Notes under the pieces: model-generated
The model's input: only the letters and a program-made list of their open reading frames with translations
Database searches by the model: none
What the model was told of the DNA's origin: nothing
Assembly (NCBI GenBank): GCA_033439255.1
Contig: CM065892.1
Location: 186,001-250,000, forward strand
DNA length: 64,000 nucleotides
Direction of reading: 5' to 3'
From: Hericium rajendrae
Lineage: Eukaryota; Basidiomycota; Agaricomycetes; Russulales; Hericiaceae
Made by a program: the position numbers and the translations under genes
Part shown: positions 26,459 through 44,986 of the stretch, one piece after another
Layout: the number at the start of each line of letters is the position of its first letter
How positions within the stretch are numbered: the first letter of the stretch is position 1

Positions 26459-27289
26459 GGTGGTCTGAGGGAGAAGAGGGCGATAAGGAGGAGGAGCTGA
26501 GCGGAAAGCTCTGGATGAACTTCATCAATACGCTCATACCGACGCGTGACGTCACTCGCACACGGTGCACAACGGCTACTCCTTTCTAGCCTCTTGCCAT
26601 CGCCAGGCTCTGCTGAGGACGTGTTTGCGCGTTGCAATGAAGCATTGCACGCACACTTGGCACCGGAACTATCTGGCAATCGGACTCTGTTGTCGGCGAG
26701 CAGTGAGTGCTTGAGTTTTGACCTGATATTTTTGGTAATTACAGCATAAACATGGGCATCGCCGAGCGCCCGTACAGCTGGTCTCATATCGATATTAGAC
26801 CAGCTGGCGAGCGCGCAGCTCTGCCCAGCTTCGGAATTGGTGGGAGCCCCCGATTGGATCTCCCAAACGCGCACCGAGTAACGAGTTTGTGCGATATCTT
26901 CCCGCACAGGACATTGCGCTTTCTGCAGCATGGATTTACAAGCGGGTCGAGTGTACCCAGCCATGGCCTGTTTCTCGTCGATTTTCGGCTGAAAACGAAC
27001 CATCTCACACCAAATGTAGCGTAGCTGGCTTGTAGGTGGCGGCGGCGTCATGGAGAGGGAGCCTGGTGGAGTCGGTCAGCTTCGATGCCGCAAACCTGTC
27101 CGAAAGGACCATTCCCGGAGCAAGCTCCGTGAGCGCAGGTGGGGGGTTCTATCGATGTAAGGCCAGATATAACGATCAGCTCTTGCCGTCATGAACTTCC
27201 TCTGATTTCTCTAGTGACAGGAAAGCCAAGCCACGCATCCCTCATAATTTGGTGTCCTTGCTCGTTATTGCATTCCTGACCTGCCGTTG
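26459..27289. other. Intergenic, divergent promoters of branching enzyme and F-box gene 1
   Basis: An 830-bp gap. ORFs on the minus strand here are extensions of the branching-enzyme first exon frame and have no domain content. No repeats or RNA genes were seen. Confidence 0.55.
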
Positions 27290-29217
27290 ATGGAAGGCCA
27301 ATCCGAACCAGTTCCATCTGTGGGTTCAGCGATCGATGCCCTCCCAGAAGTCATCACTGCTTTTCCTCCGGAGGTTGTCGTGTTAATCTTGAGGTGTCTC
27401 AATTACCGAGACTTGCTAACTTGTTCACTGGTACGTGCATGAACGATTCCACGATTAAGCTTGTCTTAAACCTCCATGACAGGTATGCCGATCCTTTCAC
27501 GACCTGATCGCAACGGCACCGGATCTCGTGTATCTCATAGAGCTCGCCGCCGCGGGACTCATCGATGCTCAAAGCAACCGCATGTCAATGGCCGAATCAC
27601 TCAGCGTTCTTCGCGATCTACAGGCCCGCTGGTTGAGCTTCAAGCCTCTCCTGCGTCAGACTATTCTTCCCCCGTCGTCGCAAGGTGTCTTCAGCTGGTA
27701 TAGCCAGCGCCTCTACACGCAAGCTATAAAACCAGAAGACTTCTTCTTCTTCTTCTATACGAGGTCGATTGTAGGATATTCTTTGCCTGGCAGGACAACA
27801 GAGCTCTTGGATCATGGCCCTCTGGTGGACGACATGATCGCGGCATTGAAGTTTAGATCGCAAAAGCACTTCGTGGACATTGGCAAGGACCTGATAATGA
27901 TGTTTGAATGGGTCGAAAAAGAAGTTGATGAGGACGATGAGGATGAAGACGATGTCGTTTCTCAAACCTGCGTTCGCGTACATTTCAGGACTCTTTCCTC
28001 GGATGCTGTCTTACCCTACCCAGCGTGCCAGAGTCCTGTCTTGGAAACGGAAGTGAGTGGTAATCGGACCTATCTCAAGTCATTTCACATACACAACGAT
28101 ATTCTCGCAATGCACCTGGGGCCACACTTCGGTGTTAACCATCATCTGGAACTGGAAAACGGGAGAAAAGCTTGTGGTGAGAACTTCCAGTCATATCTGT
28201 AATTCCGCCAGTGCTAACCTTAATTTTATCTCAGCATATCGAATGGCAGGAGGCTCCGTTTGATACCTACGATTTCTCCTTGCTCTCGTCCAGTGAATTC
28301 GTTGTACTGACTCGCGGCTGTCGTGGTCCGTGGTTAAATAAAACTACACTCAGCCTATTCCGTTTCGGCCAGCATGCAACGTCCGGCATGAAGTGGACAT
28401 TTCGGGGCACCACGATTATGCATATTGTCAGCCTATGCCTGCCGGAGCTGGTTCCCAAGGGTTATATGCCTTATGATTTGTCTGCAGACACCCAAAGAGA
28501 TGGTCCATTCATAGCTTCAACTGATACCCACGCTCGCGTAGTCGTTTTGGATGGGTGTCCAAACCATGTACTGATTGACCCGCATGGTTCGAGCGCTACC
28601 TTCGTTCTGCACACCACTACGCTGTCCTCCCTCGCGCAACGGGCCCTGTCAATGCCCGAGTCGAAGGATCAGACCATATTTATACCATGGGAGGACTGGG
28701 GGTCGAAGAACTCCCGGATGTTCCTGACGAAACCCCTTAGCGCCGCGCAATACCCAGCCAGGTCTGTTTTTCTCAGATTTAACTTACCTATTTACCCTGT
28801 CGCTGAGCGAATCGCGTCGTAGACATTTCACTGGCGAGCGCCTTGCCCTGACAGTATGCGACGCGGACGGCATAGAAACCTCGCAAATCCTGGATTTCAA
28901 TCCGCGTGCTCTGAAGCGCGCGCCCTTCACCGACGGTAAGGGCCACGCTGTGACGGTTGTCACCGAGGCCACGACGCATGACTTGTCTGCCGTCTTCACA
29001 AGCCTGACAAGTATTACAACGTCCCTGCCATATACCGCGGTCCAGATCCCGGACCATGAGGAGTATTCTGACTTCATGTTGGACGAACATCGGCTGCTTT
29101 GTCTCAAGGTGGGTGTGTTTCATGTCGATCCGTACGTCGATTAGACACGCTTTGTTTTTTTCGTAGAGGCAGACAAGTCAGGACGAGGCGAACCAAATAG
29201 ATGTCTTCGTGTTTTGA
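27290..29217 (+). CDS. F-box protein 1
   Basis: F-box proteins recruit targets to SCF ubiquitin ligases through Skp1. From ATG at 27290 the protein starts MEGQSEPVPSVGSAIDALPE, and the F-box follows at about residues 20-60: TAFPPEVVVLILRCLNYRDL, LTCSL, an intron, then VCRSFHDLIATAPDLVY. The rest has no named repeat but carries tryptophan-rich blade-like segments (HIEWQEAPFDTYDFSLLSSS, FIPWEDWGSKNSRMFLTK) and the C-terminal motif EYSDFMLDEHRLLCLK. Five or six exons; the last is short and ends DVFVF with TGA at 29215-29217. A poly-Asp/Glu run lies near residue 200. It is clearly paralogous to the gene at 43106-44986 on the other side of the retroelement nest. Confidence 0.85.
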
Positions 29218-29745
29218 GTAAGTAGGGACATTATACTGCCCAAATCCTGTCAGTATGCCTGGACAGCCGGATGGACAAGTTCTTTCAGCGTTTGAAAACT
29301 ATCTTTTACACTTCGCCTGTGCCCATGCATGTCTCGATATGCGGGCCAGGCAACAACAGCATGGTGTCATTTGCGCATGAAGTCGACGCACTAGATGTTC
29401 CGTCTTGAATCGGGTCTCCGAGTGGCATCCCCTGGACTCGCCGTGTATTTCTCGTTGGTTGAGCGGCTAGAAAAATCAAGATTCTCGTCTTTTGAGATAG
29501 GATTTGATGCTAAGCTCGAGAATGGACGAACCGGATGTCGTTGGACCTGGTATATGATTGGTCGATGGACCTTGCAACTAGCAGTCGAAGATATGTATTC
29601 AACCCATCGAATCCAGCGAATGTATTTCTTGATGGAGCTAACATCAATGCACTGCGATGGGATGCACAATGGCATCTGAGACAGTGGGACAACCTCGTCA
29701 GATGATGCCTGCTGCGCGGAAAGAAGCTAGTAGGACACGCAAATG
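29218..29745. other. Intergenic between F-box gene 1 and the DIRS element
   Basis: About 530 bp of AT-richer sequence with chance ORFs on both strands. I see no domain and no repeat. Confidence 0.5.
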
Positions 29746-29790
29746 GGGCTAGTTAATTGACCAATTGCTTCGCTCGCAAGGCGGAGAGAT
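29746..29790 (+). repeat. DIRS left inverted terminal sequence
   Basis: An 11-bp exact match to the complement of the right end (42465-42475) continues inward as an imperfect match (GACCAAT, then a GC-rich CGCTCGCAAGG-type block). This is consistent with DIRS inverted terminal repeats. The inner limit is not clear. Confidence 0.55.
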
Positions 29791-30163
29791 GTCCCAAGAC
29801 TGAGAATGTAATTAGCTTTGATCCTAGCGTGGACTCAATGCTAATTGCTGCTACTTGAGGTGGGGAGGGGAGTTTTGGGGGAGCAGGAGGAGGGCACGTG
29901 ATGAGGACACGTGTCTCGCATGATCAGCGCGTCGCGCGTCAACGATCTCGCGCCTTCGGCGCGTCCTGCTGCAAACCCAAAAACTCGAGCTGCTCGCAGA
30001 GCAGAAGGAGCCCGGCAAATGCCGCTCGACCCTTCTCCAGGTCTTAGGCACCGAGGCCCCACCCAGAGCGCAGCTCACCCACCTCGGGGGCTAAAGACAC
30101 CCCCACACCCGAGCCACCCCACACCAGAGCAAGCTCAGAAAGAACAAGGGGAACCGACATTGA

Positions 30164-31428
30164 TTACGAGCCAAAACCATGCTCAAACTCATCCATCACT
30201 GAGTGTAAACTACTAGGGTCCATGCCCGAAAATGACTTGGAAATAAAAAACGGAAGAATGTCCTGAATCTTACGCCAGTACAAAAGAAAAGCGTCCGAAA
30301 GCCACCGACCCTGCTTAGCGACGACCTCTGGCGGAACACCCATCAATAGCAACTCCGTGGCCCCTCCAATGCGAAAGCTATGACCACCTGAAATGCTCTC
30401 AAGACCAGATCGAGCCCACACAGCATTGCAGCGGCCCATGAAGACATCCTTAGTCAACGGGAGCCAAGAATCATCCTGAACAAAGGCGAACAAGGGCGCG
30501 GAAGATGGCACGTTAGCGTTGATGCACAAATGGTACTCCAGCGCGAACAAAGGGGAGAGACCGCCAGCAAAATCGGTGATGGAGATATCGGCACCTGCGG
30601 TGTCCGTGGTCTTCGAAAAGGGAATGTGCAGCGTCGCATACCGCGCCCGATTGCGACTCTCGCCGAACTTGAGAGGCGACGCGCGAGTGACGTGGCGAGA
30701 AGGATCGAAAACTGAATCGGAGACAATAATGAGCTCGCCGAGGCGGCAACAAGACCAGAAGGCAACAGAAGCGGTCGCCCAGACCGCCGAATCTAAAGAA
30801 TTAGAAAAATTGAGACCAGCGAGCAATGCTTTCATGTGTGCGTGAGTGACAGGAGGACGTGGGGGTCGACGAGATGAACTAGGAGCTAATTTCTTCACCC
30901 CCGCTAATGCAGCCTTCAACTCCGCGGCACCAAGCCAAGGCGCACCTTGCATCTTGTGCCAGAGCTCCAGACCGCTTATCCATTGTTGTGCCGACCCGAC
31001 CTTGCCAGCTCCTGCGGCGACAAAACCAGCAAGAAGCGTGTCCGATGCGGGAACACGAAGAGCCTCAGAAATGTTGAAAGTGTCACAATATTGTGTGAAG
31101 CGCAGAAGACCGGCACCGTACACTGTGCGTGTTGAAGCTTCGATGGAAGAGATCTTGACAAATTGGAGACGATCGTATGCGGGCGCAGAAAGTAAGGCGC
31201 GCGCTTCGCCACTGTGAATGAGACCGAAGGGTGATGTCCAAAGGAGAATGCGATCCCGGGCGGGAACGAGAGGTCGAAAAATAGAAGAGGCATACTCATT
31301 CCCAGCCCTGGGCTTTCGAGCCCGAATGAGGCGATCACTGGAGGTGCGCGGAAGTGTAATCAGCACGCCGCCGGAGCGCGCCTCGGCCGATAACACAACC
31401 TCCGTAATCGCGTCCGCGACAGCGGACG
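30164..31428 (-). CDS. DIRS tyrosine recombinase part
   Basis: This is the site-specific recombinase that DIRS elements use in place of a DDE integrase. The frame shows the phage-integrase fold's catalytic set: Arg in WSCCRLGELI, His-x-x-Arg in GGHSFRIGGATELL and a Tyr in GRWLSDAFLLYWRKI. Upstream are the SAM-like N-terminal helices (STRTVYGAGLLRFTQYCDTF). The start of the part lies beyond the Gypsy insertion. The open frame as it now stands borrows its first codons from the LTR at 31429 onward. It is a fossil part, described as found. Confidence 0.88.
31424..31428. repeat. Target-site duplication GGACG (left)
   Basis: Five bases next to the left LTR, identical to 38529-38533 next to the right LTR. 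Five-base duplications are usual for Ty3/Gypsy integrases. Confidence 0.9.
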
Positions 31429-31851
31429 TGTCAAGACTCGGTCGTAGACAGCAGAGAACCACCCAAGTCACCAGCGATGATGGGGGCGAGAGAGCAGAGA
31501 GCGGCTAGCAGCGCAGTGACCTGTATTGGAGGTACAGTACGGTACAGACGAAATGGACAATCTAGGGAAATAGGCGAGCGACAGGGAGCCTATAAGTACT
31601 GGGACGACAATGGGAAAAGAACAATGGACACCATAACGGGTCGAACAATAGAGTGAGAACAATGGTGGCCAAAAGGAGAACAATGGGAGGGAGAACAATA
31701 GGATGTCCCAAAGGGGAACAAGGGCATGGGTGAAGGATAGCCCCAGGTCATGTGAGGAAGTGAACATGTGATGGGGCTGCTGGAGCACATGACCGATGCG
31801 ATGCCTTGATGGCAGAGAAGAAGGCGGAGAGAAATGGAGCGATCCGTGACA
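31429..31851 (-). repeat. Gypsy LTR (3' copy)
   Basis: A 423-bp direct repeat of 38106-38528, beginning TGTCAAGACT and ending CCGTGACA, with TG...CA ends. It is nearly identical to its partner. The end of the pol frame runs into it. Confidence 0.95.
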
Positions 31852-34800
31852 TCACCCCCTCTCTAAGACGCACTTTCGCCTGGAGTGCGTGATGAGCATG
31901 GACGGGATCGAGGTAGATGAGTCCACGAAGATTGGGAGCCTTGAGTGCATGCGGATGGCGGGTGTAGAAGTCGGTGATTGCACCATGGGCATTGGAAAGG
32001 GAGGTACGTGAAAGCCACTGATTTTCTGAATCAGGGTAGCCTGCCCATTTGACGAGATATTCAATGCCGCGTTTGTTCCGAGTGAGACGAGCATCGAGGA
32101 CAGACTCAACTTCGTACTCTTCCTCGCCCTCCACAAGGTCAGGTGGTGGTGCAGGGAAGTTGGGACCATGAGCATCGGTTTCCTTGTAAGGGGACAACAG
32201 GGACGTGTGGAACACCGGGTGGATACGCCAGGTGGGTGGTAGCTTCAGTCGATAAGAGACTGGGCCCAGGACGTCAGTGATTTCGAAAGGTCCCAGGCGT
32301 CGATCAGCAAGCTTAGCTTTGGGTCGTGTGGTTTTGATGTTCTTGCCATCGAGCCAGACCTTGTCGCCAACCTGGAAGTGGATGGTGTCATGCATATGGT
32401 CCTGGTTGTTGCGCTTCATGAGATCAGCAGCTGTTTGAAGGCTGGCCTGGACCTCAGTGCGAAGTTGTTCGAGGTGACGGAAACGATCCTCGACGGCGGG
32501 TGTAGACGATGTGGGGTTGACAGTGGGGATGGCAGTGGGAATATAGCCGAGGAGCATTTCAAATGGAGCTCGGTTAGTGGCGCTGTGGATACGGTGGTTG
32601 TGCGAGAACTCAGCGTAAGGGAGCCATTGGACCCAATCATCCTGACGGTAGTTGCAGAAGGTACGAAGGAACTGCTCGAGTTCTTGATTGACGCGTTCTG
32701 ACTCGCCATCGGTCTGTGGATGATAGGCGGTGCTGAGGGAGGACTTGATACCAAGTTTGTCAAAGACGCCACGCATGACTTTGCCTGCGTACTGTGGGCC
32801 ACGATCAGAGATGAGGCGTTCCCAGAGGCCATAGTTCCGATAAATCCTGTCAAAAAGGATGTCGACTGTGCCATCACTGGTAATGGTCTCGTTACAAGGA
32901 GTGAAGGAGACGTGCTTTGTAAAACGGTCGACGACCACATTGATGGAGTCATAGCCTTGGCATTCTGGGAGTTTGACGATGAAGTCCGAGGTAATGTCTT
33001 GGAAGGGACGGGTAGGGATGGCATTGGGGATTGTTTCAACATGGGGGCGGTGATTTTGAACCTTGGTGGCCTGGCAGGTAGCACAGCCATCGACATAATC
33101 ACAAACGAAGACAGACATACCGGGCCACCAGTAGTTGCGACTGAGGAGCTCATAGGTCTTGTAGCGTCCGGGGTGACCAGCCATGGGAGTGTCGTGATGC
33201 AGCTTGACGATATCTCGCCGAAGGTCCTTGTCAGCAGGGATGTAGACTTTGCCACGAAAGAGGATGAGGCCATCCTCGTAGTTCCATTCTTGGAGGTTCT
33301 TGACGAGGGAGCGAGGACCGTTGTTCAGGATCACGTCAAGGGCTTGAACGACCTCAATATCCTTGGTCTTGGCATTGCGAATGCGTTGGCGAAGATCAGC
33401 ATTGCCAATGGACTTGACAGCGGCTGGACGTGTAGCACGAATCTGGAAGTACTTGGGGTCGAGGAGGACACGATCTGAGTTGTCGTCGTCCACCCCCTCT
33501 CTATGGTCAGGTCGTCTCGACATGGCATCTGGCCGGTGATGAATACCGGGTTTGTGGATCAAGGTGAAGTCGAAACGAGTGAGGAAGAGAGCCCAGCGAG
33601 CCTGACGACGACTCAGCTTTTGGGCAGACTTGAAGTATTCCAGGTTCTTATGGTCGGTCCAGATCTCCACAGTATGGGGAGAGCCTTCCAGGTAGTGCCG
33701 CCAGGCTTCGAGGGCACGGATGATGGCCAGGAGTTCCTTGTCATAAATGTCGTAGTTGCGTTCAGGGGCAGTGAAGGCCTTGGAGATGTAAGCAACAGGG
33801 TGCCATTGCTCGTCCTCCCCGCGCTGGGATAGGATACCTCCTGTGGCATAGTCTGAGGCATCGACCTCAACCAAGTAGGGTTTGGACGGGTCAGGCATGA
33901 TAAGGACTGGGGATGAGGTGAACGCAGCTTTAAGAGCCTCAAAGGCATGTTGACATTCAGCAGACCAGGCCCAAGGATGGTCTTTCTTGGTAAGGTCAAA
34001 CATGGGACGGGCGACTTTGGAGAAGTCCTGGATGAAGCATCGATAGAAGTTGCCAAAGCCAACAAAGGACTGGACATCCTTGACGTTACGGGGGGCAGGC
34101 CATTCAGCGATGCCTGCAACCTTGACGGGGTCCATGGCAAGCGTGTTATGGGAGACGATGAGACCGAGGAACTCAACAGAGGGCTGCTCAAAAGAGCACT
34201 TCTCTGGTTTGAGGAAGAGGTCATTGTCCTGGAGGCGTTGGAGGACCTTGCGCACAAGGTCGCGATGTTCTTCGAGGGTTTCGGTGAAAATGAGGATATC
34301 GTCCATGTAGATGACGACTTTGCCCGTGTCGATGAGATCCTTGAAAAGTTCATTCATCATTCCTTGGAACGTGGCAGGGGAGTTTGTAAGACCAAAAAAC
34401 ATCACCAGCGGTTCAAAGAGACCGCGGTTGGTTTTGAAGGCGGCTTTCCATTCGTCGCCCTCCTTGATGCGAACGTTGTTGTAACCCCAACGAACGTCCA
34501 TCTTGGAGAAGACTTTGGCACCCTTGAGCTTGTCAACGAGTTCAGAGATGAGGGGCAGGGGATATTCATTCTTGATGGTGCCCTTGTTGAGGGTGCGATA
34601 GTCCTGGACGGGGCGTAGTTTTCCATCTTTTTTCTTGATAAAGAAGAAGGGACTCGCCATAGGAGATTTGGAAGGACGGATGTAGCCTTTTTTGACCTGG
34701 TCATCAAGGAACGAATCGAGGTCCTCCTGCTCAGTGGGAGCCATGGGATAGACCTTGCATGAACGGGGTTCAAAACCATCTTTCAGGTCGATGGCGTGAT

Positions 34801-35230
34801 CCCAAGGGCGACGTTCAGGAAGGCGATGGGAGGATTCCTCATCGAAGACGGGTTGGAAATCCTGGTACTGAGGGGGAACCATCTCAGCAAAGGACTTCTC
34901 CGCAACATGGGCGGCCACACGCTCAGCCAGTTTCTGAGCATTGGTGAAAGAGCGACGGATACGGATGGTATGTTGGTAGTCTGGGTCGTCATCTGGAGGG
35001 GGTGGTGTGTCCCAGTCAGGGAGAACACCAGCTAGGCGAAGACCCTCTTCAACCCAGTCATCATCGACGTTAGGTCGCGGGTCATCATCCTCGGTAAACA
35101 GACGTGCAGGGACTTTGGACAGGTGGATGCGGCGAAGACGGACACCTTGGACTCGGCGAGCGGGGATCACGTATTTGGGAAGTGGGGCAGGAACAAATGG
35201 CGGGGGCAGTGGGAGCAATGGAGGGGGCAA
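31748..35230 (-). CDS. Gypsy pol: reverse transcriptase, RNase H, integrase, chromodomain
   Basis: The 1,160-codon frame has, in order: reverse transcriptase ([20 protein letters not shown], then [14 protein letters not shown] with the YMDD box); RNase H ([25 protein letters not shown]); integrase with an HHCC zinc finger ([30 protein letters not shown]) and DDE core ([25 protein letters not shown]); and a C-terminal chromodomain ([27 protein letters not shown]). The frame is open throughout and its last part lies in the LTR. It is a fossil or possibly live element part, described only as found. Confidence 0.93.
   Translation of the reverse strand: [1160 protein letters not shown]
31852..31864 (-). 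other. Polypurine tract of the Gypsy element
   Basis: On the minus strand the sequence AGAGAGGGGGTGA sits directly before the 3' LTR. This is where LTR retroelements prime plus-strand DNA synthesis. Confidence 0.75.
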
Positions 35231-35853
35231 GGTGGGGGGAGCAGTACAGCAGCGGTACTGAGGACTGGTGGACGAGGGGCTGATTGGCGGCGTTCTGAGC
35301 GAGTGGACAGGTTTTTGACCGGGGGCTTATTCAGGGTGCAAGAGGGAGGGCAGCGAGTCATGTTAACACGACGAGAGACCCAATCAATTTCAGGGTTGTG
35401 TTCCTGTAACCAATCGGTCCCAAGGATAATGTCATAGTCGCCAATATCAACGAGATAGAACTCAGCTGTCTCCTCATGGAAGGACGTCGAGTCCTTGGCG
35501 TAAATGCGGATGTTCTGGTTGACGGAATAGCGGACCCAGCCCATGATGTTTTCGGAGTTGTCCACGTTGCGAACGGGAAAGGGTTTAGGGAGTTTCTTGA
35601 GGGGGAACTGGTGTTTCTTGGCAAACTCAGGGTGCATAATGATGCCTTCTGCACCACTATCGAGAAGTGCCTCAGCGTCGATTTGTTTCTTGATCGGGGC
35701 AGTGATAATCTTGGCCTGGAGCGTAATGGACGGTGTCTGACGGTTGGGTGTGATAGCGGACATGCGCAAAGACGATGGATACGATTGCTCACAGGGGTCG
35801 GATAGTACAGAGAAGCGATTCGACGGATCAAAGAAATGTTTCTTGCCACCCAC
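35167..35853 (-). CDS. Gypsy aspartic protease region
   Basis: The frame holds the retropepsin motif EALLDSGAEGIIM and the downstream DYDIILGTDWLQEHNPEI typical of Ty3/Gypsy proteases. It lies between gag and pol and overlaps the pol frame by about 60 bp, as is common in the family. Confidence 0.85.
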   Translation of the reverse strand: MGGKKHFFDPSNRFSVLSDPCEQSYPSSLRMSAITPNRQTPSITLQAKIITAPIKKQIDAEALLDSGAEGIIMHPEFAKKHQFPLKKLPKPFPVRNVDNSENIMGWVRYSVNQNIRIYAKDSTSFHEETAEFYLVDIGDYDIILGTDWLQEHNPEIDWVSRRVNMTRCPPSCTLNKPPVKNLSTRSERRQSAPRPPVLSTAAVLLPPPCPLHCSHCPRHLFLPHFPNT

Positions 35854-35876
35854 GGACGACGTGACCGGGGGGCGCT

Positions 35877-36866
35877 TTAAAAACCCTCAACCATATCCTT
35901 TAATGCAGCCTTTGCCTCTTCCCTCTCTTCCTCGCTCAAGTCCTTCAACTGCGACGATAAGTCGGCGATGGACCTGTTGATGGCGGGGACAGCGAGGGCA
36001 GCGGCTGCATCTTCTGGAGCTACTCCCGGGGCAGAGCCGGTTTCTAGCGCTCGGACACGAGGGGTTGAGGCACGGGGGTTGGAGTCGGCATTGAGGGGGC
36101 AGTCGCGGAAGCCATGGCCCTTCTGGCGGCAGCAGAAGCAACCGCCCTCACGCCTGAGGCGCTCACGGTCAGGCTCCGAGAGTTTGGACAGTGGGGCACC
36201 TGTAGCAGCGACTGTGCGGGATCGGCCAGTAGATGTGGACTGAGGGGAGCGAGTGCTCACCGGGGTGCGCCCAGTTGTAGGGCGGGGACTCTGGAACCGG
36301 GTGCGCATGAGGTAGGCAGCATTCCTGTCACGGGCCCTCGCCTTCCACTCAGCCAGGGTGGTGGGCGTGGGGTAGCTGCGCTGGCAATCATCGCGCAGGG
36401 TGCTGTTGAGGCCATGCAGGAACCAGTCGATCAGGGCCACGTCATTGTAGCCGGTGCGAGGGGCGAAGGACTCAAACTCGGTGATGTAGTCGACTACCGG
36501 GCGCGTACCCATCTGGAGGGTCTGGATAGCATGGGAGGCATCCTTGGAGTCGTCAAGGGGAGAGAAGTCCAAGTTGAAGCGAGTTCGAAGGGCGGTGAGG
36601 TTGGCGTAACGGGGAACATGAGCTGGAGATGTTTTTGCAGCCACGAGATCGTCATCCTCAAGGATCTCCTCGACGCGCTGGGTGGCCCACTGGCCAGCGA
36701 TAGGGCCCTGGCAGAGGTCGAGGAAGAGGGAGATCTGGGCGGTATCATCTTTATACCGGGTAGAGTTGGCGCGAAGGAATAAGCGAATACGCAGCTGGAA
36801 TTCCTTGGACTTGGAACGATCTCCCTCAAAGGGAGCAGGTTTGACGCCGATCTCAGGGTTGGACAT
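35877..36866 (-). CDS. Gypsy gag with zinc knuckle
   Basis: The retrotransposon gag (capsid) domain reads PAPFEGDRSKSKEFQLRIRL, then TLQMGTRPVVDYITEFESFA and WFLHGLNSTLRDDCQRSYP. It is followed by a CX2CX4HX4C knuckle (CFCCRQKGHGFRDC). A helical Ala/Glu-rich tail ends the frame. Confidence 0.88.
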   Translation of the reverse strand: MSNPEIGVKPAPFEGDRSKSKEFQLRIRLFLRANSTRYKDDTAQISLFLDLCQGPIAGQWATQRVEEILEDDDLVAAKTSPAHVPRYANLTALRTRFNLDFSPLDDSKDASHAIQTLQMGTRPVVDYITEFESFAPRTGYNDVALIDWFLHGLNSTLRDDCQRSYPTPTTLAEWKARARDRNAAYLMRTRFQSPRPTTGRTPVSTRSPQSTSTGRSRTVAATGAPLSKLSEPDRERLRREGGCFCCRQKGHGFRDCPLNADSNPRASTPRVRALETGSAPGVAPEDAAAALAVPAINRSIADLSSQLKDLSEEEREEAKAALKDMVEGF

Positions 36867-38105
36867 GTCGATGGATGGCTGAACAGGGGGGGCTGTGGCA
36901 ATGGTTGGTTTGACGTTGACGGTGGATGTCGATGCAACAGCGGCAACGGGTGGAGCAGGTGAGGGGACTGGTACTGGGGTAGGCGTTGAAACAGGTGGTG
37001 GTGGTGGGGCCTGAAGGGTATCGAGGCGGGTAGCTTGTTGCTGAGCGAGATTCTCTATAACTGCTTGAGAGAGTGCGAGTTCTGCAGTGGTTAAGAAGAG
37101 GGTACTGGCCTGCCAAAACCACAGGTCACTTTCTTCTACGAGGCTGGGTCTCCAACTGACTACAAGCCGATTGGTGTCGGAGCGGTATGCGTAGTAGTTG
37201 TTGGTTACCGGGTTGAAAGTAATACCTGGGGGAACAACAAGTGGGGTGGTGCGAGCAGGGGGAGAATCTGCACTAGGAAGGGCAACGGTGGGAAGCGGCG
37301 GGGTAGCGGGGTGTTGGCGACGGTGTTCTGTAGCTGCGACGTCGAAGTCGTTAAGCTCGAGGTCTGCCTGGTCGTCACGATCGGCGAAGTACCACTGTGC
37401 GGGACCGTCGTCGTCCTCGTCCGGAGTGACGAAGTCTATTCGAACGATGCCAGAAAGGGTGTAGATGAAGTATTCGTCGAGCGAGGCAAAGACGCCGAGT
37501 GGGTATGGTTCTGTGGTCTGGAAACGGGGGTTGGTGGGATCAATGGTGAGGTCTAGAAGAAGTCAGCCGCAACTGGGCGACGACCAAGAGCACGAGGGTA
37601 CAGGGGGTCCGAGTACGGGTTTCTGAGGAATCGGTGGCCGAGGCGTTCTCTGGCCCACACAGGCTCAGGCGAGGGTTCGGGGGTGAAGAGACCTAGTGTG
37701 CAAAAGGGGAACGAGGTCGATGGTAGGATACTTGCAGGGGATCCTCGGTTGGGTTGGCGACAGTGGTAAGCGATATCCGAGGCACCGAACGTGAATTCTT
37801 GCAAGTCGACGTCAAAGGAAACTCGAATTCGAACGTATAAGGCAATGGAGATAGCACCTGCACGTGGTTTCCACGACCTCAATCGAAACCAAACTCCTTC
37901 GGCTTCCCAACGCTTCACAGCACAATAGCGGAGGAGGGGGATGAGTGCACTGCCCTCGATGGTGTTGGCGATGGGAAAGGGGAGATGAGGTTGATGGAAT
38001 GGATGTCGGGATTCGGTGAAAATGTCGGCAGTGAAGGGTTCAAAGAAGAAAGGTATGATGGGCGATAGTAGGGAGGTGAGGTGGGTGTATGAGAGATTGT
38101 CCAGG
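36867..38105 (-). other. Gypsy leader and gag-upstream coding-like stretch
   Basis: Between the 5' LTR and the gag domain lie about 1.2 kb with long minus-strand frames. They encode a Pro/Val-rich region (PTPVPVPSPAPPVAAVAST), DEDDDGPAQWYFADRDDQAD and an aromatic segment near 37.55-37.92 kb. This looks like an N-terminal extension of gag, or a separate product, as seen in some basidiomycete Gypsy lineages. I do not propose how the frames connect. Confidence 0.5.
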
Positions 38106-38528
38106 TGTCAAGACTCGGTCGTAGACAGCAGAGAACCACCCAAGTCACCAGCGATGATGGGGGCGAGAGAGCAGAGAGCGGCTAGCAGCGCAGTGACCTG
38201 TATTGGAGGTACAGTACGGTACAGACGAAATGGACAATCTAGGGAAATAGGCGAGCGACAGGGAGCCTATAAGTACTGGGACGACAATGGGAAAAGAACA
38301 ATGGACACCATAACGGGTCGAACAATAGAGTGAGAACAATGGTGGCCAAAAGGAGAACAATGGGAGGGAGAACAATAGGATGTCCCAAAGGGGAACAAGG
38401 GCATGGGTGAAGGATAGCCCCAGGTCATGTGAGGAAGTGAACATGTGATGGGGCTGCTGGAGCACATGACCGACGCGATGCCTTGATGGCAGAGAAGAAG
38501 GCGGAGAGAAATGGAGCGATCCGTGACA
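38106..38528 (-). repeat. Gypsy LTR (5' copy)
   Basis: A 423-bp direct repeat of 31429-31851 with about one mismatch. Being upstream in the element's direction, it carries the promoter. A TATAAG-type sequence and repeated GAACAATG blocks are inside it. Confidence 0.95.
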
Positions 38529-38533
38529 GGACG
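38529..38533. repeat. Target-site duplication GGACG (right)
   Basis: Partner of 31424-31428. It belongs to the interrupted DIRS element. Confidence 0.9.
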
Positions 38534-38604
38534 GCGACGACGATGCACCTATGCACGACGACGCTTGATAAATACAAAAAGCCACGAAAACCGTAGATAA
38601 CGCA

Positions 38605-39835
38605 CTATTCATTCACAAACGCCTTTCGAAGTGCCTCTGGCAGAGGCGCAGCGTCCTTGAGCCGGGAGAAAGATGGGACCCGTATTCCGCGCGAAACGGG
38701 GTCTGCCACATTCTCTGCCGACTCGACGTACACAAGCTCGAATGAAATGTTGATATCCATGGTGACCAGATCCGTGCGCCGTATGCACTGGTTCACCATC
38801 CAATTGCGGCTCCGTCCGCGTCGGAAGGCCCCAATGACACCCTGGTTGTCACTGTGGATGAGAACGGAGGCATCTCGTATGCCCGCGCGCTCAACCTGCA
38901 AGACGGCTAGTTCAATGGCAATAGCTTCGCCCCAACCTATGTCGCATCCCACCGGGATGTTCCAGCCCTCCGCCCAGCGCCAAGCAACAAATGCAGAGTC
39001 AAGGACAATCCCGACACCCCACTCCGTGGACGCGTCAACCCAGATGTCGATGTCACGTCGCGGACCCCGCGGTACGAGCGAGCGAATGCGCGGGGCCGAG
39101 CGTAACTCGGTGAGCCACCAATGTATGTCTGTCCAAAGGGAGGGTTTTGGCCAGCGGAGAAGAGGTCGACCGTGACGAATATAGGCGAAGTCGGCGATGA
39201 AGGAGGCGAGGGAGGTGAGGAAAGCGCGGCCGTGGGGGTAGACGAAAGCAACATGGTTGAGTGAGCCGTTGATGCTCTGAGCTTCCTTCAGAGGAATTTG
39301 ACGGCCCTCGAATTGAGATATGAAGTCGTGAAGTTTCTGAATGAGACGAACAAGCTTGTGGTCAGCGACTTGAACTGTTTTCGCCGAGATGTCCCATGAG
39401 AAGCCGATGTACAGGACGACAAAATCGAATTCCTGGCCCTTTGTCGCATGCCAAGGAACCTGCAGGGCCGCGATAAGAGACTTCGCGCCCTCCCGATTGT
39501 ATGCATACTCGTAAACGGCGGAGCCCAAGTCATCGGTCCACGACCGAATCGGGAAGCGAAAGATGCAGTTGTCGTCAACCCATTTCACCGACGGGCCGAC
39601 TCCGACACACTGCCAGATGTCTATCGTCGCATCTGCGACCTCGCCCTGTAAGCCCGAAGTGGTAGCGGCGCCAAACGGCGCATCATGGTCAAGCCAGAAC
39701 ATCCCCCGATGAGCCATGACGAGGAACTTTTTGTCCTCTGACTTGATTGGGATCGTGCGATACGCTTTCTCAATGTCAAGTGTAGCAGCCTGCGCACCAG
39801 GAGGCGTGCTCGCGACCTGCGAGTACGTGGTATCA
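38605..39835 (-). CDS. DIRS reverse transcriptase / RNase H block
   Basis: This block holds LDIEKAYRTIPIKSEDKKFL at its start, then HRGMFWLDHDAPFGAATTSG, SVKWVDDNCIFRFPIRSW (the catalytic DD box in DIRS form), YIGFSWDISAKTVQVADHKL and an RNase H-like domain (DIDIWVDASTEWGVGIVLDS, SVLIHSDNQGVIGAFRRG). It ends ALRKAFVNE. DIRS reverse transcriptases are a distinct lineage related to those of Gypsy elements. Fossil part, described as found. Confidence 0.88.
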
Positions 39836-40395
39836 GAACATGATAATCCACAAGCGCATGCGCTTCAGGTAACGATCCGATATCGAGAAGAAAACACGTC
39901 CCCGAGGACCGAGAAAGGCCAGCGCTGTCAGCGCGACCGCGGCTCAAAATTTCAGACACTTGGGCGCGAAACTCGGCAAGCCCGACTTCAAGGGAACAGG
40001 GAGCTCCACACGCATAACGTGTATCCGCACTCGAAACAAGGAGCTCCCCATGCGCCAGCATGTGTTCGCGCTCGAAGCCAACATCGACCGCGAGGTACGA
40101 CGTGCTTATGAAACCTGAGCTCCACGTGCGAACACGCATTCGCGCTCCAGAAAAAGCCGCGTTGACCTCATGGTACAACGCGCTTATGAAACATCGAACT
40201 CCGTGCGCAAGCGCACATTCGCGCTCGAAAAAAAAACCTCACCGGCCGCCATGGCACGGCTAGTTTATGAGAACAAGGAGAGTTCCTGGCAGAGGATCCG
40301 CAAGACCATGCCAGAAAGGGAGCGTCAACGCGAAAGAAGATGGGAGCAGAGAACTGAAAGGACGACATAAGTTAAGGGGGAAAAGGAATAAGAAC
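39836..40395 (-). other. Stretch inside the DIRS reverse transcriptase: probable intron
   Basis: The two conserved reverse transcriptase blocks are separated by about 560 bp. On the minus strand this stretch begins GTGAGT and ends with CAG. DIRS-like elements are known to carry spliceosomal introns in some lineages, so an intron is the simplest reading. It contains the tandem repeats listed next. An inserted sequence is the alternative. Confidence 0.5.
40041..40275. repeat. About three tandem copies of a 76-80-bp unit
   Basis: Units start at about 40041, 40117 and 40196, each opening GAGCTCC or GAACTCC, then a TTCGCGCTC block, then a GTACGACGTGCTTATGAAAC-type block. A half unit precedes them at 40001. 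Copies differ at many positions, so the array is not freshly made. Confidence 0.7.
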
Positions 40396-41335
40396 TCACA
40401 ATTTCTGCCATCACAGATGCTGTGCCCCATCGCGTCGGGAAATCGTCAGAGTCAAGGAGGTCGTTGACCGCGTACCCTGCCTTGCCCTTATGCGATATAT
40501 CCCGCACAATGCGGCTCTTGATTTTTCCATTTTCGTCAACCGTGATAACGACGTGCACGGGGCACGCCGCAAAGTTCCCGCCGCAAATCTCCCTCATCTC
40601 ATCATGCGTGAACGGGCCACTCATGCGTTGGGAGTCAACCTCTTCCTGAAGATACTCGTCGATGCGCCCGTCCTCACTCGAAGGTCGATAAGGTGGTATA
40701 ATAGAGTCAGCGAGAATGGAATCCGGAACGCCAAGAGAGAAGCCGTTGCGCAGACTGTGGACCAAGTGAGGATATCGGTTTTCCAGATGAAAAAGGTGGA
40801 AGAAAAATTCGAATGCTTCAGGGTTGTACGGGCACACGACGCGATCGAGAATAGAGTCGGAAAATGATGTGATACGAGAAGTCTTAGCCGGAACGTCAAG
40901 AAGGCCGTCGGGAAGTGGTATCGTGCAATGTGGAATGAGAGGTGAGGATTCAGGCAGGACAACCCGAGGCATTGTGGTGTTCGTCACCACAGAGGGAGCA
41001 GGAATGCTTGACATTGGTGCCATGAAGTCCTGGCTTGCACTTGTCGGCACCGGAATTGAAGGCGATGCAGTACAGGAGCTTGCTGTTGCTGACGTTGGTG
41101 ACGGCGTGGGGATGTTGTTTGTCGAACCGGGAGAGAACCGGTCGGTTGCTAAGAGTGGTCTTGGTAACGCAGTCGCGTGCGAAATGACCGGAGCGGCCGC
41201 ATATGATGCAAGAACCGCCGGCCGAGGTGCGGGACTTGCCCGATGGAAAGGGCTGGGTCTTGTCCTTGCCGTAGGGAGCGAACCGGGATGTGGACGCGAT
41301 GGACGAGCCCACACGATCACGGGTGCCGCCACCAT
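40325..41335 (-). CDS. DIRS reverse transcriptase, upstream block
   Basis: A Pro/Ser-rich N-terminal segment precedes the start of the polymerase domain: NPEAFEFFFHLFHLENRYPH, EEVDSQRMSGPFTHDEMREI, VHVVITVDENGKIKSRIVRD and GYAVNDLLDSDDFPTRWG. It overlaps the gag-like frame in another phase, as usual in these elements. Fossil part, described as found. Confidence 0.8.
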   Translation of the reverse strand: MVAAPVIVWARPSRPHPGSLPTARTRPSPFHRASPAPRPAVLASYAAAPVISHATALPRPLLATDRFSPGSTNNIPTPSPTSATASSCTASPSIPVPTSASQDFMAPMSSIPAPSVVTNTTMPRVVLPESSPLIPHCTIPLPDGLLDVPAKTSRITSFSDSILDRVVCPYNPEAFEFFFHLFHLENRYPHLVHSLRNGFSLGVPDSILADSIIPPYRPSSEDGRIDEYLQEEVDSQRMSGPFTHDEMREICGGNFAACPVHVVITVDENGKIKSRIVRDISHKGKAGYAVNDLLDSDDFPTRWGTASVMAEIVSSYSFSPLTYVVLSVLCSHLLSR

Positions 41336-42347
41336 TGTCGCGTTGGCTAAATCTGGACATGTCTTGTAGGCGCCGGTTGAACTCGAAGCTGCGGAAATTG
41401 GCGATCTCTTGTCCTAGACGGATATGCCAACAGGCGTCATCGTGCACGAATTGTGGCTCGTTGTATGCACGACGCTCGGCAATGTCGAATGCGAGAATGG
41501 CCGGGAAGGCAGACTCACGCTCCTCGCGCGCACACAATGCTTCAAAGTGATGGCGCCAGCGCAGTCGGACCGCCGAATCGGCACGTCCTCCGAGAAACGT
41601 AGCGTAGTTGCCCCAGGCTTCCATCCAGAGGACCAGAGAAAGGTCCATCTCCTTGCCGAGCGCGGCATGTCCGACGTCGAGCAGGGACACGTTACCCGAG
41701 TTGATGTGATGCTTCTTCATGAGTGTGCTCCTTTGTTCGGTGATAAAACGGAGATTAGCGCGGGTAAAAAGATGCATGGGAAGATACATCTTCTCGTCGA
41801 ATAATGAATGGATCTCGTCAGGGATCGAGATCGGGCGCTCAATCGAGGATACGACTTCTTCATCGACTTCTCTGAAAATCCTGCGCTTAGGCTTGGTGAC
41901 TGCTGCCGTGGGCGCGGTAACCTGTGTGGAGGAATTGAGTGGTCCTAGCGCGCCGGAAGCAGCCAGCGAAGCCACGCGCTCGGATGCCATGTGTGAGGCA
42001 ATCAGTGATACGAGTTGTTGTTGGTCGGCCGGAAGATTACTATATAGATGTGTAAGTGGGGTATTAAAGGAAGTTCCGGCACCACCGGATGAGGAAGCGC
42101 CTCCGGCAGCGCTAGAAGATGCCGCATTTGTATTAGGAGGTTGCGTTATAGGGGTCGAAGGTCGGTTATCCTGTTCATCCGCCGGCGGCGTCGATGGACG
42201 AGATCTGCCGGATCTATTCTGCGGAGTCTCGCCGTCCGTTGTGATAGTGGTTCCTTCTGTCATGCTGATTGTACTGAATGTTGATCGGGAAGATCGTATG
42301 CGAGGAATGAACCGAAATGAAAAAAGTCGGCGGCGACACCGCGACAC
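40950..42347 (-). CDS. DIRS gag-like protein with zinc knuckle
   Basis: The 465-codon frame has a Ser/Thr/Pro-rich N-terminus, a helical capsid-like middle (LGKEMDLSLVLWMEAWGNYA, WRHHFEALCAREERESAFPA, VHDDACWHIRLGQEIANFRS) and a zinc knuckle CIICGRSGHFARDC near residue 385. A second Cys/His cluster near the end (CSLCGDEHHNASGC) may be another knuckle. Fossil part, described as found. Confidence 0.85.
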   Translation of the reverse strand: MSRCRRRLFSFRFIPRIRSSRSTFSTISMTEGTTITTDGETPQNRSGRSRPSTPPADEQDNRPSTPITQPPNTNAASSSAAGGASSSGGAGTSFNTPLTHLYSNLPADQQQLVSLIASHMASERVASLAASGALGPLNSSTQVTAPTAAVTKPKRRIFREVDEEVVSSIERPISIPDEIHSLFDEKMYLPMHLFTRANLRFITEQRSTLMKKHHINSGNVSLLDVGHAALGKEMDLSLVLWMEAWGNYATFLGGRADSAVRLRWRHHFEALCAREERESAFPAILAFDIAERRAYNEPQFVHDDACWHIRLGQEIANFRSFEFNRRLQDMSRFSQRDNGGGTRDRVGSSIASTSRFAPYGKDKTQPFPSGKSRTSAGGSCIICGRSGHFARDCVTKTTLSNRPVLSRFDKQHPHAVTNVSNSKLLYCIAFNSGADKCKPGLHGTNVKHSCSLCGDEHHNASGCPA

Positions 42348-42434
42348 GAGGCAGGAGGAAGGGATGAAGGGACGTGGGAAATCTCTCCCTGCGCGTCCCG
42401 TCCTTTCCTCTGCCTGCGGGCGGCGGCAAAGGCC

Positions 42435-42475
42435 GGCCCGCTCAGTTGCCTCGCTCCATTGGTCTTAACTAGCCC
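42435..42475 (-). repeat. DIRS right inverted terminal sequence
   Basis: This is the counterpart of the left terminal sequence. Just outside it (42478-42516) lies a small 9-bp inverted repeat, GCAAAAGCT facing AGCTTTTGC, which may belong to the element's end or to the host. Confidence 0.55.
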
Positions 42476-43105
42476 TAGCAAAAGCTCCCGTCTCGCAAGC
42501 TCGACTTAGCTTTTGCGGCATCTAGTCTCATATTAAGACCCCGCGGTTTGGAATGAACCTACAAATGGGTCTGCGTCTGTCTGCGTGTCGACCAGAAGGA
42601 AGGAAGGAAGGAAGGAAGTATATTCCGCAGCGGTCCATTGCGGGACGCGAACTGTGACGCAGTCAGGCACAGGATAGATCTCCTCGAAGTTCACCAATGA
42701 CCATCGACGACGACTCACCGCGTCGCCGGGCTTGGCTCATCTCAAACAAGTTCGAGGCTGCGACTTACTGTGAATTTCACCACAGACTTGCTACAGGCTC
42801 CCGAATAGTCATCGTGCTGATGCCGACTGCCATGTGAGTTTATCCATTGTTGTCCATCCGTCCACGAGCTGAACCTACTCGCAATCACCCTGATCACAGT
42901 GGCTACTCGCATCTGCCTCTATGCTTCTCTCCGATCGCACGTGGATTCGTAATGTCCGACTGTCAGTTTCTGCTAGGGACCATAGACGCTTGTCAATGGG
43001 TCTGCGCTCCGACAGCGTTTAATCAAATACTCTCCATAAGCCAGCTATGGCAGCCTGTATGTCGCACTGCTTCGACTGGTCTTCCTACTTGTTGGACTCG
43101 TCTTG
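42476..43105. other. Intergenic upstream of F-box gene 2, with a short GGAA microsatellite
   Basis: This 630-bp stretch lies between the DIRS end and F-box gene 2. It holds about five to six tandem GGAA units at 42596-42618 and no recognised gene. Confidence 0.6.
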
Positions 43106-44986
43106 ATGAATCACGGTCGTGATATGACTACCAATCAAATTGGGAAGAGGATAATCGCGTTTCCTTTGGAGCTGCTGGTGATGATCCTCAACGAGTTGGG
43201 ATATAAAGATTTGTTAGCATGTTCTGCGGTATGTGGCGCGTCCGTTACATTTTGGGTCACAGAGCTAGAACGTTTTCTATGACCCAGGTCTGTAAACACC
43301 TCCATGGCGTAGTGAAACATGCCATCGAATTTGTGTACAAGATCGAGCTCGCTGTTGATGGCTTCGTGGAAGGACCCAGTAACTTAAGCACCAGCGAACG
43401 CCTTCGTATCCTCCTCGACCTTCGATCCAATTGGCGCACCTTACGTTGGATCAAACGGGAAACCGTCCATCTATACCCCGGAAGACTCAAGGACGTGCAG
43501 ATGCATTACGTCCAAGGTATCTTCGCACAGGCGACGTCGCGGATCTCAGAGGACGCCCAGTTCGATCGATCGGTCGTCGGGACTTTGCTACCTACTCGCT
43601 CAACCGAGTCGGAGGCTCGCGGCTCACTAGTTGACGATTACGACATCTTCTGGCACGCGTTCTGTATGGATCCTACCGCTGATGTGGTGATTCTTGCGGA
43701 GGCAACTGTTCTCCACCCGGATTTATATGGCCCTGGCAATGAACCCGGTCAAACACAGGTTATCCTACATCCCAGATCTCTCAGCTCTCACGGCACTCTG
43801 CCACATCCCAAATGTCGCATCGCAACACTTGAATTGATTGTGGAGGCTGATGAGGTGAGCCTTTGGGAGCCGAAAATAGCTGGGGACGTTGTTGGCATAT
43901 GCATGGAAGATAAAGAGCATCTGATTGCAATCTGGAACTGGCAGTCGGGCGATATGCTTGTCGTAAGTACTTCTCCTGCGGTATTTGAACTAAATTCACG
44001 AACGCTTCCAGAAAATGACGCACGACGATTATTCATTTTCAATCTGCGATTTCGCATTTCTTTCGCCTCGGTCTTTCGTCGTTATTGCGTCCGGATGGGA
44101 GGGCCGTTCAAGCAAGCAACAGTCTCTGATCTTGTTTACTTTCGGCGACGATACCTCCGACGGTGTATCGTGGGGCTTATCCGTTGGCGCAGTGAAACAT
44201 GTAACTAGCCTCTGTCTTCCAGAGCTGGCTCATAGGCAGCCCGTTAGAAGATTCCTTTCAACAGCAGCCTGCACCTCATATCAGCCCGCTGGTATACCAT
44301 TCATCGTGGACCACCCCACTCGCCTTTTGGTCCTTGACATCGAGGTTGGTGGACATTACTTTGGCGATCGACGCACAAACTTGAGAATGATCGTGCACAT
44401 CAATGCACTGTTGCGGACCATCAAGTCTGCGTCTACCGCCGAAGGCTCTACCGATGCATGCCGATGCATATCATGGGAAGCTTGGGGTCCCGAAAATTCT
44501 CGGGTATTCCTGACCAAAGCACACGACCCTGTGAGCTTCCCGCAAAGGTATGTGCGCCTCGAAACCGCTTATAGCGTTACATATCTGACCTGAACTTTAG
44601 GCCTATTCACGGAGACCGAGTCGTCTTGCAGGTACTAGAGGGGTGCGAACAGCGCACGCAAGTCATGGATTTCAACATACGTGCCCATCGGAACAGATCT
44701 TCCGACGATCGCACCTCAGTCGTGAGGGAGCCTTCTGTCCTCGCAATACCATCGATTTTCAAACAGCCAGTCATCACGTCCCTGCCATACTCTGCGACAT
44801 GCATCCCGGACGGTCACCTGTATGATGGCTTCATGCTGGACGAACAGCGGCTACTTTGCATGAAGGTTTGTCTGGACAATCAAATTTTGCAAATATTTGC
44901 ACTCACTGGGAAATGCATAGGTTGTCCCTAAAAGTCCTGGGACCGGACTTCTCGTTGTTGAAGAAATAAAAGTCTTTTCGTTCTGA
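43106..44986 (+). CDS. F-box protein 2
   Basis: It is a paralog of the protein at 27290-29217 with the same plan. ATG at 43106 (a second ATG at 43124 is possible) leads into the F-box IIAFPLELLVMILNELGYKD, LLACSA, an intron, then VCKHLHGVVKHAIEF. Later segments are DLRSNWRTLRWIKRETVHLY, ICMEDKEHLIAIWNWQSGDM, FAFLSPRSFVVIASGWEGR, HVTSLCLPELAH and CISWEAWGPENSRVFLTK. The shared C-terminal motif is YDGFMLDEQRLLCMK. The last exon ends EEIKVFSF with TGA at 44984-44986. All frames stay open across five to six exons. Target proteins are unknown. Confidence 0.85.

Follow-up and report, generated by a model that had tools for sequence, protein, structure and literature searches.

Ngaro-type tyrosine-recombinase retrotransposons are laid out in the order A-pol-B-A-B, and the fungal survey that gives this plan, in the sections accessible to us, confines fungal DIRS elements to early-branching fungi and places Ngaro elements in Basidiomycota, with one ascomycete exception (PMC3783388). 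The chromodomain Gypsy elements of basidiomycetes include the clades MarY1, Laccy, and Tcn, according to the available portion of PMC2864245, which also describes self-priming. In the genome of Hericium rajendrae (46.8 Mb in 19 contigs), we analyzed a 64,000-nucleotide stretch (C15:186001-250000, hereafter the window) in which both kinds of retroelement occur together: a chromodomain Gypsy lies inside a Ngaro-type element whose reverse transcriptase (RT) gene contains a predicted intron with conserved hairpins. We put the probability that the two elements are correctly identified and nested at roughly 90%. A nested insertion is ordinary in itself; here it provides a relative date for two retroelement families, with CpG decay in both, and the retained intron is of more consequence. 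The host and the insertion comprise the following features.

29748..42520, minus strand: Ngaro-type tyrosine-recombinase retrotransposon containing the Gypsy insertion (delimited by homology to the C13 copy and by the edges of the A and B repeats)
42318..42520, minus strand: Ngaro A1 repeat (203 bp in the C13 copy)
40950..42464, minus strand: Ngaro gag-like frame with a zinc-knuckle motif (zf-CCHC match below its cut-off)
40400..41413, minus strand: first RT exon of the Ngaro (frame upstream of the intron)
39817..40399, minus strand: predicted phase-0 GT-AG intron, 583 nt, inside the RT (same position in 9/9 copies)
38605..39816, minus strand: second RT exon and RNase H frame of the Ngaro (motifs by eye)
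38534..38612, minus strand: start of the Ngaro recombinase frame, truncated by the Gypsy
38529..38533, no strand: target-site duplication GGACG, right
31429..38528, minus strand: chromodomain Gypsy (chromovirus), entire insertion, 7,100 bp (pair of long terminal repeats [LTRs], target-site duplication, Pfam domains)
31424..31428, no strand: target-site duplication GGACG, left
30164..31426, minus strand: remainder of the Ngaro tyrosine recombinase (matches the PHROG phage integrase profile, E 2.4e-4; Pfam Phage_integrase E 0.079, below its cut-off)
29748..30072, minus strand: single Ngaro B repeat; A2 and B2 absent

The nesting is documented by a paralogous empty site. In a genome search, C13:668151-670745 matched the sequences on both sides of the Gypsy at 99% identity, the two matches being directly adjacent, and across the insertion point the C13 copy has a single GGACG and no Gypsy; because so close a relative is Gypsy-free with one GGACG, we regard the nesting as real in the assembly. 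The Gypsy interrupts the Ngaro recombinase gene 28 codons past the first ATG of the frame, and the position of the Gypsy inside the Ngaro makes it the younger of the two. A first-pass annotation of the window had described a 7.1-kb Gypsy with 423-bp LTRs differing at about one position and a 5-bp GGACG duplication, inside an older host; the element measures 7,100 bp, the duplication is present at 31424-31428 and 38529-38533, and the position of the Gypsy bears out the order of the two insertions. The many substitutions between LTRs that the annotation had named as contrary evidence are not seen in the assembly, where the pair shows 1 difference in 423, at a site that is CpG in one LTR but TpG in its partner.

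The annotation had called the host DIRS-like, and this part of its description did not stand. Read in the sense direction, the C13 copy consists of A1 (203 bp), the genes, B1 (325 bp), A2 (203 bp), a 28-bp linker, and B2, with A2 100% identical to A1 and B2 99.1% identical to B1, and the C2 copy follows the same A-pol-B-A-B plan with repeats of 206 and 327 bp (A pair 100%, B pair 99.7% identical). These split direct repeats occur in two of the seven loci of the window's subfamily that were found with a recombinase DNA probe (a low copy number; further relatives are more distant), and not in the window copy itself. Pfam searches gave no methyltransferase (Dam) match in the five Ngaro open reading frames (ORFs) scanned and no match to rve, the DDE integrase, in the Ngaro frames. 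On the strength of the split direct repeats in two intact relatives and of the negative methyltransferase search, we classify the host, from its sequence, as a Ngaro-type element and not as DIRS sensu stricto. It resembles the fungal Ngaro elements of PMC3783388, as far as the consulted sections describe them, in its A-pol-B-A-B plan, gag, putative RT/RNase H, and tyrosine recombinase, and in the lack of a methyltransferase and a DDE integrase, and differs from them in the predicted phase-0 RT intron with its hairpins and in the absence of A2-B2 from the window copy. The window, C5, and C6 copies all end at the B end without A2-B2, which suggests recurrent loss, either by recombination between B repeats or through the recombinase acting between two B ends.

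Two alternatives bear on this reading of the locus. Assemblers can be misled by families with many near-identical copies, such as this one, and the nesting might then be an assembly join; this is extremely improbable in view of the matching 5-bp duplication, the exact LTR ends, and the exact empty site at an independent locus. Moreover, all 14 Gypsy copies with an intact LTR pair are flanked by 5-bp duplications, among 20 looked at (the window copy and 19 fetched from 39 other listed places; the remaining 6, whose fetched sequence contained no intact LTR pair, were excluded, leaving 14 full-length copies). A true DIRS host, with inverted terminal repeats and an internal complementary region, would account for the 11-bp inverted motif GGGCTAGTTAA/TTAACTAGCCC near both ends, and the element does encode a tyrosine recombinase and is, broadly speaking, a member of the order DIRS. 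We nonetheless consider this very improbable, given the split direct repeats of the two intact relatives, the lack of a methyltransferase match, the absence of any inverted repeat of at least 30 nt in 28000-44500, and the fungal host range reported in the accessible part of PMC3783388. The host ends proposed in the first-pass annotation, 29746 and 42475, correspond to the 11-bp motif and are replaced by 29748 and 42520, the ends set by homology to C13 and by the edges of the A and B repeats. Weighing against the identification of the host are the RT and RNase H, which were recognized by eye, with a DNA_pol_viral_C match below threshold, seen in the C2 relative, as their sole profile support, and the profiles built from the Ngaro RT and recombinase sequences, which matched no solved structure up to E 1. 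An AlphaFold model of the recombinase from the single sequence had a mean pLDDT of 33.6 and was unusable.

Of more consequence than the nesting is the interruption of the RT gene of the Ngaro host. In the window copy, the RT motifs are distributed over two frames 583 nt apart. The gap has GT at its start and AG at its end, is in phase 0, and falls at the same codon (MAEI/VAS..PGAQAATLD) in 9/9 copies in which both sides are present: the window, C13, C2, C6, C5, and C18 copies, and three members of a second subfamily (C2b, C5b, and C14b) with 40-45% protein identity to the window's. The more distant Ngaro-like loci C3, C8, and C17 stand outside this count. The donor is GTGAGT or GTAAGT in the window's subfamily and GTACGT, GTATGT, or GTGAGC in the other, and the gap ranges from 254 to 583 nt. 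A spliceosomal intron is the simplest reading of these sequences. Within PMC3783388, the main text contains no occurrence of "intron" or "splic"; PMC3266345 has no "intron" passages, and those of PMC8547959 are unrelated to Ngaro elements. A literature search covering titles and the openings of abstracts found no report of introns in Ngaro, although such a report may still be in print.

The predicted intron of the window copy contains the following hairpins.

40286..40314, minus strand: conserved intron hairpin H0
40196..40226, minus strand: hairpin unit 1
40117..40147, minus strand: hairpin unit 2
40041..40073, minus strand: hairpin unit 3
40001..40032, minus strand: hairpin unit 4

H0 lies near the 5' end of the intron and has the form GCAUGRUCUY-NNN-GGAYCCUCUGC, or close to it, in 6/6 introns of the first subfamily, with a differing predicted outer pairing in C18. 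The repeated unit, GAGY-GYGRAY-stem-loop-stem-GGA-GCUC, was found by a mismatch-tolerant scan 15 times in four loci (window 4, C5 4, C6 4, C1 3). Covariation was assessed in the 12 units of the window, C5, and C6; the C13 units duplicate those of the window and were omitted, and one window unit, whose outer stem departs from the search pattern, was added by hand and is also recovered by the mismatch-tolerant scan. Across these 12 units, 47 of 48 inner positions pair, compared with 37.5 when the arms are permuted between units (0/20,000 permutations reach 47) and 21.2 when the inner letters are shuffled (0/5,000 reach the observed 47). Two C1 units outside the covariation set have 3 and 4 of their 4 inner positions paired, whereas three pattern matches outside Ngaro have 0, 1, and 0 of 4 paired in the same register, one of them pairing if shifted. 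Genome-wide, the pattern has 15 matches, 12 of them in Ngaro introns, versus 4 for the reversed pattern. Over the 15 units, there are 11 G.U pairs and 1 A.C pair; 5 of the 7 outer-stem G.U pairs sit where CpG would decay to TpG, and for this reason the evidence for the RNA strand is modest. An Rfam search of 29500-42700 gave no match up to E 1. A kink-turn requires a particular G, which is missing in 5/15 units, and a kink-turn reading of the units was dropped.

Several observations count against the intron and its hairpins as described here. The window and C13 copies are siblings, so that the nine copies represent eight independent ones, and the C1 relative is 5' truncated and its intron cannot be scored. 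The C2 and C18 introns lack the hairpin unit, though they carry other strong hairpins (fold excess z -5.5 and -3.7). In some other introns the fold excess is weak, with z of -0.9 in C6 and of -0.8, -0.8, and -2.4 in the second subfamily, and downstream exons are similarly low (C5 -2.6, C18 -2.1). Because the whole-intron fold energy is uneven and some exon controls are equally low, we do not use it as main evidence.

If the gap were not spliced, the RT halves would have to be joined by frameshifting across it, or the gap would be a decayed spacer; its length of 254-583 nt, long relative to basidiomycete introns, fits such a view. The GT and AG ends, the phase, and the identical codon in all nine copies, together with exon halves that align between relatives in nucleotide searches while the middle does not, render it improbable. 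As to the hairpins, they may be palindromes at the DNA level or minisatellite repeats, with no function in RNA. The units are repeated three to four times per element, inverted repeats can serve as recombinase sites, and the G.U pairs at CpG-decay positions and the uneven fold excess are in keeping with this explanation, which we consider possible, if somewhat unlikely. It accounts less readily for inner stems that vary between units and yet pair, for the excess of G.U over A.C pairs, for the concentration of genome-wide matches in Ngaro introns, for the other hairpins in the C2 and C18 introns, and for the presence of H0 in every intron of the subfamily.

To our knowledge, template choice in tyrosine-recombinase retrotransposons is an open question. 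A retrotransposon copied through RNA should tend to lose introns; that one has stayed at an unchanged codon while these elements diverged deeply implies selection of unspliced RNA as the template. Since new copies that still have the intron can arise only from unspliced RNA, hairpins restricted to the intron would be well placed to mark the genomic RNA. RT would be made from the spliced mRNA of the Ngaro alone, and its genomic RNA, left unspliced, would retain the intron, with the hairpins acting in cis as a signal for export, packaging, or template choice. Tentatively, and at odds that we would place well below even, we propose that splicing separates the two roles of the RNA: the spliced form would encode RT, and the unspliced form alone would carry the hairpin array that marks the genome for reverse transcription, a packaging-signal system independent of that of retroviruses, with the intron kept across two subfamilies. 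The conserved intron hairpins are a testable candidate for template choice. Like the packaging and export signals of retroviruses described in the accessible parts of PMC5035971 and PMC10309623, they would be cis elements present only in unspliced genomic RNA; unlike them, they belong to a tyrosine-recombinase retrotransposon and lie inside the RT gene, with a function suggested by inference only.

The Ngaro family looks recently active, because the window copy differs from its C13 sibling at only 42 of ~5,670 aligned positions plus one gap and because A1 and A2 are identical in two copies. Presumably, the window copy inserted by means of its own tyrosine recombinase and it now lacks the internal A2-B2; the Gypsy would then have integrated into the recombinase frame through its own integrase, creating the 5-bp duplication. 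Two further observations concern the A repeat. At 42440-42520 and in the C2, C5, C6, C13, and C18 copies, it opens with a hairpin, the outer stem of which (GCAAAA...UUUUGC) varies in both arms from copy to copy (by eye), and next comes the B end in inverted orientation, possibly a recombinase site or an RNA structure. At L019 (C18), two A-repeat starts are arranged head to tail with 62 bp between them, as would result if one element had inserted in the A repeat of another.

The inserted Gypsy has the following features.

38106..38528, minus strand: 5' LTR, 423 bp, TGTCA...TGACA
38231..38240, minus strand: LTR stretch complementary to the priming site, candidate RNA 5' end, ~32 nt downstream of a TATA-like motif
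38094..38103, minus strand: candidate self-priming site TGGACAATCT, 2 nt past the 5' LTR (complements LTR 289-298)
35877..37562, minus strand: gag frame (Retrotrans_gag; CCHC knuckle by eye)
35880..35886, minus strand: heptamer G_GGU_UUU, a candidate -1 frameshift site directly before the gag stop UAA (identical in 14/14 copies)
35167..35886, minus strand: protease frame, start of pol (Pfam)
31748..35326, minus strand: frame for RT, RNase H, integrase, and chromodomain, off-frame to the protease frame in the window copy
31961..32116, minus strand: chromodomain (PF00385, E 1.1e-10)
31852..31863, minus strand: purine-rich stretch preceding the 3' LTR, identified by sequence, which from established knowledge we take to be the polypurine tract
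31429..31851, minus strand: 3' LTR, 423 bp, with one CpG-site difference from the 5' LTR

Pfam matches cover gag, protease, RT, RNase H, integrase, SH3_Tf2-1, and the chromodomain. As expected of a chromovirus, pol has the order protease, RT, RNase H, integrase, the chromodomain is C-terminal to the integrase, and paired TG..CA LTRs are accompanied by a target duplication. In gag, this pol order, the chromodomain after the integrase, and paired LTRs, the element resembles the basidiomycete chromodomain Gypsies of PMC2864245, so far as the available portion describes them, and it differs from them in a candidate self-priming arrangement and in the G_GGU_UUU slip site. The gag frame terminates at G_GGU_UUU_UAA in all 14 full-length copies, with pol in the -1 frame. 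G_GGU_UUU is a canonical slip heptamer, and the element may produce Gag together with Gag-Pol through -1 frameshifting at this site. The primer-binding site complement (LTR 289-298) keeps all 10 nt in 13/14 copies, an arrangement that would fit Tf1-type priming of reverse transcription from the 5' end of the element's own RNA, the RNA start itself being predicted. Two points tell against it: one of the 14 copies retains just 8 nt, and a 10-nt complement occurs in 3 of 567 control stretches, one of them the primer-binding stretch; for these reasons we treat self-priming as suggestive only. Unlike Tf1/sushi elements, the window Gypsy has gag and pol in separate frames and a 2-nt spacer. No tRNA genes were found in the window.

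The pol of the window Gypsy is broken between protease and RT and does not form one open frame. The split accompanies a 1-base length difference in a homopolymer that is common to 7 of the 14 copies (the window's and 6 of the 13 others, one of them divergent); the pol frame is unbroken in 2/14. The split could reflect a recurrent slip, an assembly error, to which a homopolymer location lends itself and which speaks against a genuine break, or a break of long standing in copies mobilized in trans. If the break is real, the window copy may have been mobilized by the proteins of its relatives.

A genome search for other copies with comparison of their LTRs, as the first-pass annotation had suggested, used a 1,000-bp family probe, with 40 of 157 candidates scored, and revealed at least 40 copies, the window's included, that are 98-100% identical over the probe. 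LTR differences range from 0 to 5 in the 13 full-length copies measured (L038 has LTRs of unequal length and yields no usable count), and 4 of the 13 have none. Internal sequences of the full-length copies diverge pairwise by 0.5 to 3.8%, and the window copy has 16 private internal changes, the fifth lowest of 14. The insertion is thus recent, as the annotation held in calling it very young, but not unusual within its family, and its suggestion that the Gypsy and host families have both been recently active agrees with the near-identical copies of each; both look so.

Mutation spectra point to CpG methylation of the Gypsy and the Ngaro alike. The Gypsy copies vary at 526 internal columns, of which 482 are transitions, 320 of those at CpG, and 199 of the 391 private changes in the 14 copies are CpG to TpG or CpA, with CpG making up 764 of 6,254 bases (~12%); the window Ngaro has lost 19 CpG kept in C13, and the reverse holds for 3. 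The annotation had placed the nesting in a local silenced patch. Silencing of both elements is supported by this CpG decay, whereas a pre-existing silenced patch is not: no transposon family was matched in Pfam among the 20 window ORFs outside the elements that were scanned, and 0 of 52 control pieces from the window flanks match the other fetched loci. Four of these 20 ORFs match Pfam families (lipoyl ligase, Mgm101, MYND, and MFS, the last below its cut-off). By comparison, matches to other fetched loci occur for 19/39 Gypsy flanks, which belong to 13/20 copies; element ends were assumed for the 6 excluded copies, and the L035 "flank," which still contained Gypsy sequence, was disregarded by the filter. 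We regard this contrast as weak because the 19 include the window's own Ngaro flanks, a single locus serves as control, and the sampled loci center on Gypsy and Ngaro copies. The left flank (27169-29343) holds a member of a gene family beside the Ngaro, with 84% identical copies at C15:78644 and C6:30091 and weaker short matches, and the right flank has two short matches to other loci.

Two further Gypsy settings were observed. At C7:2869460-2869656 and 2876755-2876964, older LTR pieces of the same family (~80%) flank a near-identical Gypsy on both sides, a case of self-nesting, and the flanks of L021 and L032 place these Gypsy copies within related tandem repeats with a period of roughly 144 bp, perhaps a satellite.

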